A stretch of 64,000 bases of DNA from Brucepastera parasyntrophica (GTDB taxonomy: Bacteria > Spirochaetota > Spirochaetia > Treponematales > Treponemataceae): NCBI RefSeq assembly GCF_022376835.1, contig NZ_CP084606.1, positions 124,001-188,000 on the forward strand, in the 5' to 3' direction. The position numbers and the translations under genes were made by a program. Each line of letters opens with the position of its first letter. Position 1 is the stretch's first letter. The notes beneath the pieces were generated by a model that was given only the letters and a program-made list of their open reading frames with translations, was not told the origin of the DNA and did no database searches. Positions 25,970-49,152 of this stretch are shown here, piece by piece.

Positions 25970-26004
25970 TAACGATATAAATTCCTTTTGCTAAAAGAGG
26001 TATG

Positions 26005-26082
26005 TATAGCCAAATAATCTTAATTATCTGGCTATTTTCGATTGTAAGTGCTTCTGATGTAAAGAATTAACATCAGAAGCTT
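26005..26082 (+). repeat. dispersed two-hairpin element, copy 1 (family R2)
   Basis: Two inverted repeats are separated by a conserved linker. Arm pairs are 26007-26018 with 26023-26034 (TAGCC... against ...GGCTA) and 26050-26060 with 26070-26080 (GCTTCTGATGT against ACATCAGAAGC). A second copy lies at 45484-45568 with base-paired substitutions in both stems. The element sits between rluB and cmk. Confidence 0.7.
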
Positions 26083-26100
26083 AAATTAATGGAGTATACC

Positions 26101-26763
26101 ATGGTTATTGCAATTGACGGTCCTGCCGGATCGGGGAAAAGCACGATAGCAAAGATGATCGCGGAAAAACTCGGAATTGTGTTTATGAATACCGGGAGTT
26201 TTTACCGCGGCGTTACTCTTGCGCTATTGCGTTCCCTGGGCGGCGCTGCTGACGGGTCGGGGAGTGCTGCTCCCGATTTGCAGGACGAAGAAGCCATAAC
26301 CGCTTTTTCCGCAACAGTTCCGCTGGATTATATCAACGGCAGCTTATATATTGGCGATGAAGATGTCGAGCGTTATCTCCGCTCGGATGCTGTAGAGGCA
26401 ATTGTAGCTCCACTGTCCGCAATTGTTGAAGTACGGCATATTGTAAATGATAAAATACGGGAAATAGCCGCAAACCTCAGCCTTGTCTGTGAGGGCCGGG
26501 ATATGACAACTGTTGTCTTTCCAACCGCCGATTACAAGTTTTTCCTTGATGCGTCAGTACAGGCCAGGGCAAAACGGAGGTTTGATCAGGGGACCAGCAG
26601 TATGTCTCTGGCGGAAATAGAAGAGACAATAGCCGCCCGCGATCAAATTGACCGCAATAAAAAGGAAGGAAGTCTTAAAATTGCGCCCGATGCGGTCTAT
26701 TTGGATACATCGGACTTGACCATAAAGCAGGTTTGTGACATGATACTAAGCAAAATTCAATAA
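26101..26763 (+). CDS. cmk: cytidylate kinase
   Basis: A 220-residue protein from ATG 26101, supported by GGAG eight bases upstream. An in-frame ATG at 26089 would leave no site. The P-loop GPAGSGKSTIAKM is at the N-terminus, with NTGSFYRGVT, CEGRDMTTVVFPTADYKFFL and RDQIDRNKKEGSL following as in bacterial Cmk. It phosphorylates CMP and dCMP. Six bases after its stop comes the ribosomal protein S1 leader, the widespread cmk-rpsA pairing. Confidence 0.95.
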   Translation: MVIAIDGPAGSGKSTIAKMIAEKLGIVFMNTGSFYRGVTLALLRSLGGAADGSGSAAPDLQDEEAITAFSATVPLDYINGSLYIGDEDVERYLRSDAVEAIVAPLSAIVEVRHIVNDKIREIAANLSLVCEGRDMTTVVFPTADYKFFLDASVQARAKRRFDQGTSSMSLAEIEETIAARDQIDRNKKEGSLKIAPDAVYLDTSDLTIKQVCDMILSKIQ

Positions 26764-26774
26764 AAGGGTTGGTT

Positions 26775-28495
26775 ATGGATCAGATGGAAGTGGCACAGGA
26801 TGCATCAAAGGACTCCGGGGAAGACATCCAGCAGACACGATTACAGGAGGAGTACCTCAAGTCGTTTCAATCTCTCGAAGAAGGACAGCTTGTAGACGGC
26901 GTTGTTATTCAGGTAACAAACGACCAGGTTTTCGTCGATGTCGGGTACAAGTCAGAAGGGAAAATACCGGTTTCGGAATTTTCAGAGCTACCCAAGGTCG
27001 GTGACACCGTCAGTGTTATCCTTGAAAAAAGGAAAACAAGCACGGAGAGGTTATTGTTTCCAAGCAAAAAGCGGATGTCAAGGTTTTCTGGAAGAACCTG
27101 CGTCAGGCTTTTCAGGATAAAACACCTATTGAAGGACTTATCGAAAAGACCGTTAAAGGCGGTTATGAGGTAAATATGGGCGCAGGTGTGCGTGCCTTCC
27201 TTCCTATAAGCCAGTCCGACAGTCAGAAAGTTGAAAAACCCGAAAAACTTGTAGGAACAAAAAGCTTTTTCTACGTTGAGCGGTTATATTCCGACAACAA
27301 AGTAAATGTGGTGGTAAACCGCCGCAAATATCTTGAAGAACAGACTGAAAAAAACCGCGAGGATTTTTTCAATAATATAAAGATAGGTGATTCCGTTACC
27401 GGTATTGTTAAAAGCTTTACCAGCTTCGGGGCTTTTATCGATCTCGGCGGATTTGATGGCCTGCTTCATATAAATGATATGAGCTGGGGCCATGTTACCA
27501 AGCCGAAGGATTTTGTAAAAAAAGGACAGGAAATTACCCTTAAAGTAATCCGCCTCGATCCCGCTGAAAAAAGAATAAATCTTTCTCTCAAACATTTTAC
27601 GGAAGATCCCTGGCTCCATTTTGAAGATAAATTCCATGTAAATGATATTGTTAAGGGACATGTTACAAAACTGACTGATTTCGGCGCGTTTATTGAACTG
27701 GAAGAAGGCATCGAAGGCCTCGCCCATATCAGCGAATTCAGCTGGATAAAGAAAATAAACAAACCGAGCGATATGGTATCAATCGGACAGGAAGTTGAAT
27801 GCATGATTCTCGGTTATGACATTCAGGCCGGACGGGTATCTCTGGGACTCAAACAGGTAACCGAAAATCCCTGGGAGGATATAATTGAGAAATATCCTGT
27901 AGGAACCAGGCTGACCAGAAAGGTTGTAAAGCTCACCAATGCAGGCGCTTTTATTCAGCTTGAAGACGGTATTGACGGTTTCCTGCATATTGATGACATT
28001 TCCTGGACAAAAAAACTGAAACATCCCGGCGCGGAACTTGCTGTTGATCAGGAAGTTGAAGTGATGGTGATTGAAAATGATCCCGAATCCCACCGCATCC
28101 GGCTTGGAATAAAGCAGCTCTCTGAAGATCCCTGGCAGTCTTTTGCAGAAACCTATACTCCGGGTACTTCCGTTGAGGGTGAAATAACTTCAATTACGGA
28201 TTTCGGTGTATTCCTGAAAGTCGCGGGCGGAATAGAGGGTTTGATAAATAAACAGAACCTTCTTGAAAACCGTGATGAAACATTCGAAGATGCTGTCAAA
28301 AAATATGCTGTCGGTGATAAAATTAAGGCTGTTGTTGTGGAAGTGAGTCCCGAAAAGCAGAAAGCAGCGTTTTCAATAAAGGATTACAAGAAAAAAGCAC
28401 AGCGTGAAGAAATTTCACGGTATATGTCTTCAGAAGAAGATAATGACGACGGAGCATATACACTGGGAGATTTTCTTAAAAATAAGTCAAATTGA
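26775..28495 (+). CDS. rpsA: 30S ribosomal protein S1, one frameshift
   Basis: Restored length is about 573 residues with six S1 (OB-fold) repeats. The first begins LEEGQLVDGVVIQVTNDQVFV, and later ones show GIVKSFTSFGAFIDLGGFDG, HVTKLTDFGAFIELEEG and EITSITDFGVFLKVAGG. The frame breaks after the first repeat at an A6 run (27025-27030); with seven A it reads LEKKENKHGEVIVSKQKADV, as in other S1 proteins. The gene is essential, so a real loss is unlikely. S1 binds mRNA on the 30S subunit. Start ATG 26775 is preceded by AAGGG. Confidence 0.93.
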
Positions 28496-45360: not shown

Positions 45361-45483
45361 CTATTTTTAAAGTAATAACCGCATTTTAATTAAGTCAAGA
45401 AATTCCGGGTCTGATCACAATACGGAGCATCATTATAGATATTCTGCTTTCGGAACGGCAGGAAAATACCGACAAGATAAATA

Positions 45484-45568
45484 TAGTCAAATAATTCAGA
45501 TTATTTGACTATTTCTGATTCTAAGTGTTTCTGATATAACGAATTAGTTAATCCGTTATATCAGAAAC
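45484..45568 (+). repeat. dispersed two-hairpin element, copy 2 (family R2)
   Basis: Arm pairs are 45484-45495 with 45500-45511 (12 bp, perfect) and 45527-45541 with 45554-45568 (15 bp, perfect). The linker (GATT-TAAGTG core) and order match copy 1 at 26005-26082. It lies upstream of the DUF2721-like gene. Confidence 0.7.
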
Positions 45569-45613
45569 GTAACGTAAAGGTGTATAGTACTTACTTTATC
45601 AAGGATATTTACT

Positions 45614-46015
45614 ATGGAATTCAATATTACGACTCCGGCACTGTTATTTTCTGCCATTTCACTTTTACTGCTTGCCTATACAAACCGTTTTTTAACCCTG
45701 GCAAGTCTGGTCCGGCAATTTGTTTCACTGTATGCAGAAAAGAAAGAAGATAATATCCTCAAACAAATCAGTAATTTCAGAATCAGGCTGACTCTGATTA
45801 AATATACCCAGCTTTTGGGGGTGCTCAGTTTTCTGTGCTGCGTTTTCTGTATGTTTTTAACCCTGTTCGGAAAAGTCTTCATCGCCGAGCTTATTTTCGC
45901 CCTGAGCCTTATTCTGATGATGGCGTCATTGCTGTGTTCTCTGTTTGAGATATTCATTTCGATCGGGGCCTTAAAACTTGAATTAACACATATATACGAA
46001 GAAACCCAAAAATGA
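45614..46015 (+). CDS. DUF2721-like small membrane protein
   Basis: A 133-residue protein with CAAGGAT before the ATG. The N-terminal TTPALLFSAISLLLLAYTNRF is typical of DUF2721 proteins; two further membrane helices follow at about 62-82 (LGVLSFLCCVFCMFLTLF) and 88-115, with a basic loop between. Function is unknown. The upstream two-hairpin element lies within 50 bases of its start and may affect its expression. Confidence 0.7.
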   Translation: MEFNITTPALLFSAISLLLLAYTNRFLTLASLVRQFVSLYAEKKEDNILKQISNFRIRLTLIKYTQLLGVLSFLCCVFCMFLTLFGKVFIAELIFALSLILMMASLLCSLFEIFISIGALKLELTHIYEETQK

Positions 46016-46221: not shown

Positions 46222-46227
46222 TTGTCT

Positions 46228-49152
46228 ATGAAAAGTCGTAATACATCCCGCGCATCTTCAGAAGAAAAAACAAAAGCTGCCGAGACTCCTTCCGGCGGTT
46301 TGAATAAGCTGATTGTAAAAGGCGCCCGTGAGCATAACCTCAAGAATATTGATGTTGTACTGCCAAGAGACAAGCTTATTGTTATTTCAGGGCTTTCCGG
46401 ATCCGGCAAAAGTTCTCTTGCCTTTGATACTATTTTTGCCGAAGGCCAGCGGCGCTATGTTGAATCACTGTCGGCCTATGCCAGACAATTTCTCGGAAGA
46501 ATGGATAAGCCTGATATAGACTATATTGAAGGCCTTTCCCCTGCTATTTCCATAGAACAGAAAACGACCCATAAAAATCCCCGTTCAACGGTTGGAACCG
46601 TAACGGAAATATATGATTATTACAGGCTCCTTTATGCCCGCATAGGGTCGCCCCATTGTCCTCAATGCGGAAAGCCGATCCGGGAACAGTCTGTAGACCA
46701 GATTATTAATACCCTGATGGGATGGCCGGAGGGCACGAAAATACAGCTTTTGGCGCCTGTTATCCGGGGTAAAAAGGGCGAACACCAGAAAATTATCCAG
46801 GATGCCAGAAACGCGGGTTTTGTCCGCGCCCGGATTGATGGGCTTCCGGTCAGCCTCGATGAGGATATCAAACTTGATAAACAGAAAAAGCATACTATAG
46901 AAATTATAGTTGACCGTATTGTTTTAAAGCCCGATGTACGGAGACGCCTGGCGGAATCGGTTGAAACGACGCTTGCCAGTTCCGGAGGTATTCTGGTTGC
47001 AACCCGCCAGGACGCTGAGCCGCAGGGGAGAATCATGACGCAAGGGAAACGGAAGTTTTCTTCTCCCAGAAAAGCGCCTGCCCGGACTGCGGAATTTCCA
47101 TACCCGAACTGCAGCCCCGGCTTTTTCCTTCAATAATCCCTACGGGGCCTGCCCTGATTGTACCGGATTGGGCGCACGGCAGGAATTTGATCCCGCTTTA
47201 CTTATGCCGAACCTGGAAATTTCTTTCTATGACGGCGGGATTGTGCCGTATAACCCTGACAGTAATTGGAACCGCAGCCGTTTTGAGGCCCTTGCCGATA
47301 AATATCATTTTTCCCTGTCCGAGCCGCTGAAAAATATTCCAAAAAAAATCATGCAAATAATTATGAACGGTTCGGGAGACGAGACAATAGATTTCGTGTA
47401 TGAAAACAGGGACGGAAGCCACCGGAGCAAATATCATCAGAGCTGGCCCGGAATTATAAGTGATTTAAAACGGCGGTATAATGAAACATTCTCCGAAGGT
47501 CAGAAAGAATATCTGGAAAAATTCATGTCGAACCGGGAATGTGATGTCTGCCATGGCAAACGGCTGAGGCCCGAGGCCCTTGCTGTTACAGTAGGCGGGA
47601 AAAATATTTATGAACTTTCAACCCTTTCTGTAACAGATTCCCTTGAATTTTTCTCTTCAGTCAGACTCACGGAAACCGAACGGCAGATTGCGGAGCAAAT
47701 ACTGAAGGAAATCAATGCCAGGCTCAATTTTATGAAAAATGTCGGACTCGATTATCTTACCCTTGAACGGAAGGCAGCCACGCTTTCCGGAGGCGAGGCC
47801 CAGCGTATCCGTCTGGCAACCCAGATCGGCTCAAGCTTAATCGGGGTATTATATATCCTTGATGAACCATCAATAGGGCTTCACCAGAGGGACAATCAGC
47901 GGCTTATCGATACGCTTCTGTACCTCCGGGATATCGGAAATACTCTGATTGTAGTTGAACATGACGAACAGACTCTCAGGACAGCCGATTATATTGTCGA
48001 CCTCGGTCCGGGCGCCGGTGTACATGGCGGCTATATTGTTGCGGAAGGAACTCCCGAAGATGTTATGAATGCCAAGGCCAGCCTGACAGGCCAGTATCTC
48101 GCCGGTACTCTGAATATGACAGTGCCGGAAGAACGGAAAAGCGGAAACGGTCATTCAATAAAGCTCTCGGGGATCACCGAACATAATTTGAAAAATATTG
48201 ATGTGGAAATACCTTTGGGAGCTTTTACCTGTATTACCGGTGTTTCAGGTTCAGGAAAATCAACACTCCTGTCCGATGTTTTATATCCTGCCGTTTCAAA
48301 CAAGGTTTCAAGAACAAATTACACGGAAGGCGCGTACAGAAAAATTTCCGGCATTGAGCATGTTGATAAAATAATAAATATAGATCAAAGCCCCATCGGA
48401 AGGACCCCCCGGTCAAATCCGGCAACCTATGTCGGAGTCTTCACAGGAATTCGGGATTTATTCGCGAGCCTGCCCGAATCAAAGGCGAGGGGATACCGCT
48501 CAGGACGTTTTTCCTTTAATGTAAAGGGCGGCCGCTGTGAACACTGTATGGGCGACGGAACAATAACCATTGAAATGAATTTTCTTCCCGATGTGTATAT
48601 AACCTGTGATGTCTGTCATGGCAGACGGTTTAACAAGGAAACGCTCGATGTGCGCTATAAAGGAAAAAATATTGCGGACGTACTTGAAATGACCATTGAG
48701 GAAGCAACCGACTTCTTCATACATATTCCCCATATTGCCCGTAAAATGGAAACGCTTCTTTCGGTTGGTCTGGGTTATGTAAGACTCGGGCAGTCTGCAT
48801 TAACGCTTTCGGGGGAGAAGCCCAGCGGGTAAAACTTGCAAATGAGCTGGCGAGACGTTCGACAGGAAAAACACTGTACATTCTTGATGAACCGACTACC
48901 GGACTGCATTTCGCGGATGTAAAACAGCTTATGCAGGTAATAAAACGGCTGGTCGATCAGGGCAATACTGTTGTAATGATTGAACACAACCTGGATGTTA
49001 TTATGCAGGCGGACAGGATAATTGATCTCGGCCCCGAAGGCGGTATACGGGGCGGTACTGTTATCGCTACCGGAACACCGGAAGCAATTGCCGGGTGCGC
49101 AAAATCATATACCGGATATTATTTGAAAGAAATGCTTGAAAGGAATAGATGA
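46228..49152 (+). CDS. uvrA: excinuclease ABC subunit A, three frameshifts
   Basis: Restored length is about 975 residues. The first ATPase domain has [18 protein letters not shown], then the first zinc region (CPQCGKPI and, after the break, [10 protein letters not shown] with CPDCTGLG), the first signature [17 protein letters not shown], and the second ATPase with [35 protein letters not shown] and LDEPTTGLH. Frames are lost at GGGG 47025-47028, T5 47122-47126 and GGGGG 48811-48815; one extra base in each restores everything. It is the DNA-damage recognition subunit of nucleotide excision repair. I start at ATG 46228 because the promoter sits immediately upstream. Confidence 0.95.

Follow-up and report, generated by a model that had tools for sequence, protein, structure and literature searches.

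What kind of sequence is it that occurs twice within 64,000 nucleotides of the Brucepastera parasyntrophica genome (the whole stretch of DNA analysed here, hereafter the window), once before cmk and once before a DUF2721 gene, and that folds on both occasions into two hairpins whose paired letters differ? The initial annotation saw in it a two-copy element in which the paired differences pointed to selection on RNA or cruciform structure rather than to chance. Reading and alignment bear out that both segments are present and share order, spacing and linker, and that the three paired differences are real (in stem 1, C:G against T:A; in stem 2, C:G against T:A and G:C against A:T), and the genes are those that it had named, since the one following the first copy matches PF02224 (E 5e-68) and the one following the second matches PF11026 (E 2e-32). 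The number of copies, in turn, had to be corrected, as covariance models find at least 116 of them in the 3,239,032-base (3.24 Mb) genome among the best 150 candidates scored. We consider that the sequence probably belongs to a spirochaete family of small mobile DNA elements, non-autonomous and about 105 bp long, which would be recognised by their hairpins, insert at TA and bring a Shine-Dalgarno sequence with them.

Extent and distribution of the element

In the sense orientation, the approximately 105 bp of the element are made up of hairpin 1, the linker TTCCGATTRTAA, hairpin 2 and a tail ending AAGGAGTATA (Table 1). It is longer than had been supposed (26005-26082 and 45484-45568), because it includes a conserved tail that ends in AAAGGAGTATA. 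The linker consensus is the best-conserved single-stranded motif of the family. Aligned with copy 2, copy 1 has 11 bases missing from the tip of stem 2, and both copies fold much more stably than dinucleotide shuffles, with z values of -5.5 and -7.7 on the + strand, and -7.9 and -10.8 on the - strand.

Table 1. Coordinates of the two element copies, their parts and the neighbouring genes within the window (E-values of the home-built model R1 are rough)
Feature	Position	Strand	Remarks
Putative native Shine-Dalgarno of cmk, AAGAGG	25995..26000	+	displaced left of the element; from position and family-wide enrichment
Element copy 1	26005..26098	+	directly 5′ of cmk; R1 family; R1 match G000:C1:150005-150101, E 2.5e-16
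Copy 1, hairpin 1	26006..26035	+	13 pairs, loop CTTA, single A.C mismatch
Copy 1, linker	26036..26049	+	reads TTTCGATTGTAAGT; family consensus TTCCGATTRTAA
Copy 1, hairpin 2	26050..26080	+	11 pairs GCTTCTGATGT/ACATCAGAAGC; tip shortened
Copy 1, right end	26088..26098	+	AATGGAGTATA; Shine-Dalgarno-like GGAG 26091-26094, 7 nt 5′ of ATG; terminal TATA
cmk (cytidylate kinase)	26101..26763	+	ATG 26101 preferred; in-frame ATG 26089 falls inside the element
Element copy 2	45482..45586	+	complete; 27 nt 5′ of the DUF2721 gene; R1 match G000:C1:169482-169589, E 2.9e-19
Copy 2, hairpin 1	45483..45512	+	13 pairs, all perfect; loop TCAG
Copy 2, hairpin 2	45527..45568	+	15 outer pairs GTTTCTGATATAACG/CGTTATATCAGAAAC and three inner pairs
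Copy 2, right end	45576..45586	+	AAAGGTGTATA, GGTG variant
Putative native Shine-Dalgarno of the DUF2721 gene, AAGGA	45601..45605	+	in place, downstream of the element; from position
DUF2721 gene	45614..46015	+	

The set of 116 is a lower bound, formed by the matches of a covariance model (R1) after removal of overlaps, together with one pattern match. R1 was built from 16 copies and has matches in its own genome down to E 1e-20, and a second model (R2), for which only copies of a subfamily with other stems were used, recovers most of the B. parasyntrophica copies, which were unseen when it was made, and adds six of another subfamily; the E-values of both are rough. A pattern representing stem 1, with up to three mismatches allowed, gives 90 matches per strand genome-wide, the pattern being a palindrome, and the reversed control gives none. 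For the family as a whole, therefore, chance is set aside, while two copies by themselves were weak evidence of this. The many copies found by covariance model upstream of unrelated genes are the outcome for which the initial annotation had foreseen a mobile or regulatory family, and they point to a mobile one.

The relatives in which conservation was to be sought have turned out to be other than the nearest. R1 gives no match in any of 58 other genomes drawn from its family and order, and a search of 274 genomes of the family finds none in genomes other than B. parasyntrophica; the element does appear in the Breznakiellaceae and in four further families. Breznakiella homolactica RmG30, with about 12 to 14 copies, was found through a pattern scan of GTDB contigs; the R1 search of the order yields another 18 carriers, of which 17 belong to the family of Breznakiella and one to another; and R2 extends the list of carriers within the class by three families, which makes six spirochaete families overall, with 84 R2 matches in genome G461, 75 in G400, 32 in G448 and 27 in G425. 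Stem 1 of B. parasyntrophica is also that of Breznakiella, though their families differ, and as no other searched member of its own family carries the element, a horizontal origin in B. parasyntrophica is likely, to judge from these sequences. Pattern scans of viral contigs give no element. The family is apparently undescribed, as we found no earlier description in the open literature (most subscription journals lie outside it), and Rfam 15 at the gathering score recognises in the window one tRNA only, the element matching no described RNA family.

Pairing and letters in the stems

The differences between the two window copies are also seen elsewhere in the genome, where the stem-1 pair is C:G in 6 of 93 and the stem-2 pair is G:C in 5 of the 16 aligned; they are therefore inherited subfamily variants, and not compensations that arose at the two window sites. 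At the level of the family, pairing is conserved in a much broader manner. In the R2 alignment, 93% of the paired cells hold standard pairs and in 15 pairs both partners have changed, values of pairing and double change that none of 500 shuffles reaches and that drop to about half or less when the structures are slid along the alignment. Double changes occupy 37 cells, as against 5 for one-sided changes. When 14 genomes are represented by a single copy each, the arms of the two stems are complementary within a copy at 10.7 and 10.6 out of 11 positions, whereas between genomes, even with five registers allowed, this falls to about 5.9 of 11; and while the stems turn over in this way, the linker and the end RGWGTATA remain almost invariant.

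Thus, what had been read as selection on structure stands insofar as the structure is kept while the sequence changes, but not insofar as RNA is concerned. RNA of the sense strand tolerates G.U, and selection on it should leave an excess of G.T mismatches, yet the B. parasyntrophica copies contain 54 G.T and 73 A.C. Given this lack of excess, the paired changes speak for hairpins in the DNA that movement requires and not for selection on RNA, and double changes with almost no one-sided intermediates fit DNA hairpins as well; the perfection of the stems may in part be maintained by template-switch correction. Stems that are wholly different between genomes, beside a fixed linker and a fixed end, point to a structure-reading enzyme. 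Such an enzyme would act in trans, recognising both hairpins by their structure as DNA, along with the linker and the end; the active master copies of each lineage would have to keep perfect stems while the letters of these drifted, and old insertions would decay without any bias as to the RNA strand.

Some copies depart from the common form. In five of them (G000:C1:2492898, 3201752, 3098083, 863691 and 2314520) one hairpin has been exchanged for an unrelated hairpin, with the linker and right end kept, and that at 3098083 is a chimera, with stem 2 and tail from another subfamily. A short form of about 60 bases, consisting of hairpin 1, linker and GGAGTATA end without hairpin 2, recurs in two genomes (G000:C1:715974, 1814489, 2124297 and 2918483; L175).

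Position relative to genes

The copies are oriented with respect to what follows them and not to what precedes them: 91 of the 116 point at a downstream gene on the same strand (p 5e-10; 25 have none), and the upstream genes are divided evenly, 58 to 58, gene context being given by open-reading-frame calls only in the stretches around copies. They also lie very close to start codons, as for 32 of 109 the distance from the end of the element to the start of an open reading frame is at most 6 nt, compared with 5.3% of shifted positions (p 1e-15), and a Shine-Dalgarno-like motif stands just left of the element in 20 of these 32, compared with 16 of the other 77 (p 5e-5). The arrangement at most of the start-adjacent copies is native Shine-Dalgarno, element, and AAGGAG-TATA-NN-ATG, and it is also found in other families (L170, L253). 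By eye, the GGAG and GGTG variants of the right end show no clear split between start-adjacent and other copies. As regards the window, the copy before cmk has this arrangement, with AAGAGG to its left and its own GGAG ahead of the start codon, and cmk read from ATG 26101 gives a full cytidylate-kinase match; the copy before the DUF2721 gene has come to lie upstream of the putative native Shine-Dalgarno.

If we accept that the element moves, this placement could be understood as follows. The target would resemble the interval between a Shine-Dalgarno and a start codon, by which many insertions would fall exactly there, and the right end, AAGGAG-TATA, would then offer a Shine-Dalgarno at the proper distance in replacement of the one displaced; the element's own motif would be the one used for translation. 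Insertion beside a start codon would be tolerated because the element supplies this replacement. Small mobile repeats are usually tolerated by avoiding genes; here, the tolerance would extend to the most sensitive point of the gene, since the element brings what it displaces. In its widest form, which we hold tentatively, as somewhat short of an even chance, the proposal is that of a class-wide family of spirochaete hairpin DNA elements, moved by an enzyme, acting as a mobile 5′ leader that swaps translation-initiation regions without disabling the host genes. Should its Shine-Dalgarno work, some thirty genes in a single genome, among them cmk and aroC, would have received the same new leader, and nature would thereby have provided an experiment on how expression depends on the leader.

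Further along in the window, the rpsA-like (ribosomal protein S1) frames at 26769-28495 and the uvrA-like frames at 46222-48832 are each split by a frameshift. The genome is rated 88% complete, the splits probably result from indel errors in its assembly, and single-base indels in the copies are therefore not to be over-read.

Possible means of movement and related systems

Mobility is indicated by two observations taken together, near-identical copies at unrelated sites and an empty paralogous site with a TA junction. The G461 copies examined are near-identical with unrelated flanks, that is, recently spread, and the one empty site resolved, which comes from a paralogous repeat in this genome, reads CGAAAC[TATTCTC...GGAGTA]TAACCG in L211 and CGAAAC-TAACCG in its uninterrupted paralogue L218. 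The B. parasyntrophica genome offers, beyond self-matches and matches to other copies, one short weak candidate for an empty site (3098083, E 0.1). TA is found at both ends in more than 90% of the B. parasyntrophica copies, and at both junctions against a single TA at the empty site, an outcome that would look identical whether TA is duplicated or carried by the element. Six bases before the left TA stands a G in 61% of the B. parasyntrophica copies preceding a start codon and in 66% of its other copies; the share is 70% in G400, 75% in a mixed set and only 33% in G461. The preferred site of insertion would thus be a TA that in most cases has a G six bases before it, and TA would be left at both junctions. 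A second palindromic repeat in G461, GTTTTGGAACAAGCTC (L211, L206, L218), is a target of the element, and insertions within the loop of a terminator-like hairpin (L212 and L215 in G461; G000:C1:57184) hint at single-stranded DNA as the target.

There are other readings of these data. One is a family of cis-regulatory RNAs of 5′ untranslated regions, similar to riboswitches, thermometers or protein-binding leaders, spread by duplication of leaders and kept for regulation; the position of most copies 5′ of same-strand genes and the Shine-Dalgarno that in many of them closely follows hairpin 2 would agree with it, as would the conserved stems and the possible pairing of the linker TTCC with the GGAG of the right end (alignment 34-35 with 99-100). 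We nonetheless regard it as improbable: it is set back by the symmetry of G.T and A.C and by the recent dispersal in G461, and furthermore by the TA-flanked empty site, by the 25 of 116 copies that lack a same-strand downstream gene, by the silence of Rfam, and by stems whose sequences vary between genomes and so hold no common binding sequence. In another reading, the paired changes would come mainly from template switching in replication, one arm of a quasi-palindrome rewriting the other, and the hairpins would be by-products that nothing recognises. The preponderance of double over one-sided changes and the wholly replaced hairpins at 2492898, 3201752 and 3098083 are what it would produce, but the joint maintenance of two hairpins, linker and right end across six families, and the dispersal at TA sites, would go unexplained, for which reason we give it very little credence as the main cause, though the process may act alongside the mobile element that we favour.

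As to known mobile systems, the element resembles MITEs and REP systems in its manner of working, falls outside the definition of a REP by its length, tag and want of a linked RAYT, and agrees with that of a MITE only in part, its terminal repeats being imperfect and no autonomous partner having appeared in the stretches around copies. With about 105 bp, no coding capacity and at least 116 dispersed copies, it lies within the MITE range (under approximately 600 bp). TA duplication is characteristic of Correia and ERIC. That it is a classical MITE of an IS630/Tc1-mariner-type DDE transposon, similar to Correia, would suit the TA seen at the two ends as well as at the empty site, and the weak terminal repeats TATAGTCAAATAAT / TATACTCCTTTAAT, short and imperfect with 10 of 14 positions in agreement (about the outer 5 bases only in other subfamilies); but the target motif is one-sided, the G standing on the left only, and PF13358 is absent from the three richest genomes, B. 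parasyntrophica, G461 and G400, and from Breznakiella, which led us to reject an IS630 partner and makes this origin, too, improbable. Correia and other TA-flanked bacterial MITEs are, like this element, short, non-coding, high-copy, foldable and mostly just 5′ of genes, whose expression they alter (PMC10969869). Correia has long terminal inverted repeats and sigma-70 promoters, whereas the sense strand here shows no promoter or terminator above shuffles, and the Shine-Dalgarno that it carries has no counterpart in the review of MITEs, where ribosome-binding sites are not mentioned (PMC10969869). Unlikely, although a little less so, is a REP/REPIN system, in which palindromes are moved as single strands by a RAYT, a Y1 tyrosine transposase, since lost here. 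The likeness resides in the high copy number of hairpin units mostly outside genes, the lineage-specific stems, the conserved unpaired motifs, the insertions inside loops of other hairpins and, by supposition, the recognition of hairpins as single-stranded DNA (PMC2817692, PMC3733652, PMC8266576), and RAYT-like Y1 genes are present in 8 of 18 carrier genomes tested. REPs, in contrast, are palindromes of 20-40 bp marked by a GTAG or CGTC tag (PMC3733652); the present element folds into two long hairpins (13 and up to 19 pairs), has no such tag at the stem foot, which reads TATAG, TATTC or TATAC, and possesses the linker and the GGAGTATA end. Moreover, Y1 (HUH) transposase PF01797 is absent from the richest carrier, B. 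parasyntrophica itself, and from G400, G425, G437, G370 and G390; no element accompanies the Y1 genes of G448 and Breznakiella, and Y1 loci are not flanked by it, save in L270, where a weak match lies at a distance of 1.4 kb. An IS200/IS605 or RAYT partner, absent from the B. parasyntrophica genome and unlinked where present, was rejected on these grounds. The element also recalls the non-autonomous elements of IS200/IS605 type in its hairpin near each end, the guide-like motif 5′ of hairpin 2 and a G-rich motif common to target and right end, and differs from them in that hairpin 1 starts at the very end, TA is found at both junctions and its own genome has no Y1.

The mobile element, in our reading, would therefore be moved in trans by an enzyme that recognises its DNA hairpins. 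Neither an IS200-type nor an IS630-type transposase turns up in the B. parasyntrophica genome, whose transposase inventory, built on the stretches around copies, is incomplete. A scan for half-elements, looking for an autonomous version in the stretches around copies, gives only decayed copies or copies without hairpin 2. Two RAYT-like Y1 genes, in a Breznakiellaceae genome and B. homolactica, lie at L261 1027-1869 (-) and L265 1474-1977 (+), the element not flanking them. A further likeness is to the Rickettsia palindromic elements (RPE), mobile palindromes that insert in frame into genes that keep working (PMC10969869); in both cases a mobile palindrome would be tolerated since the host gene stays functional, but the RPE inserts inside reading frames, and the present element in leaders, where it is predicted to restore the ribosome-binding site.
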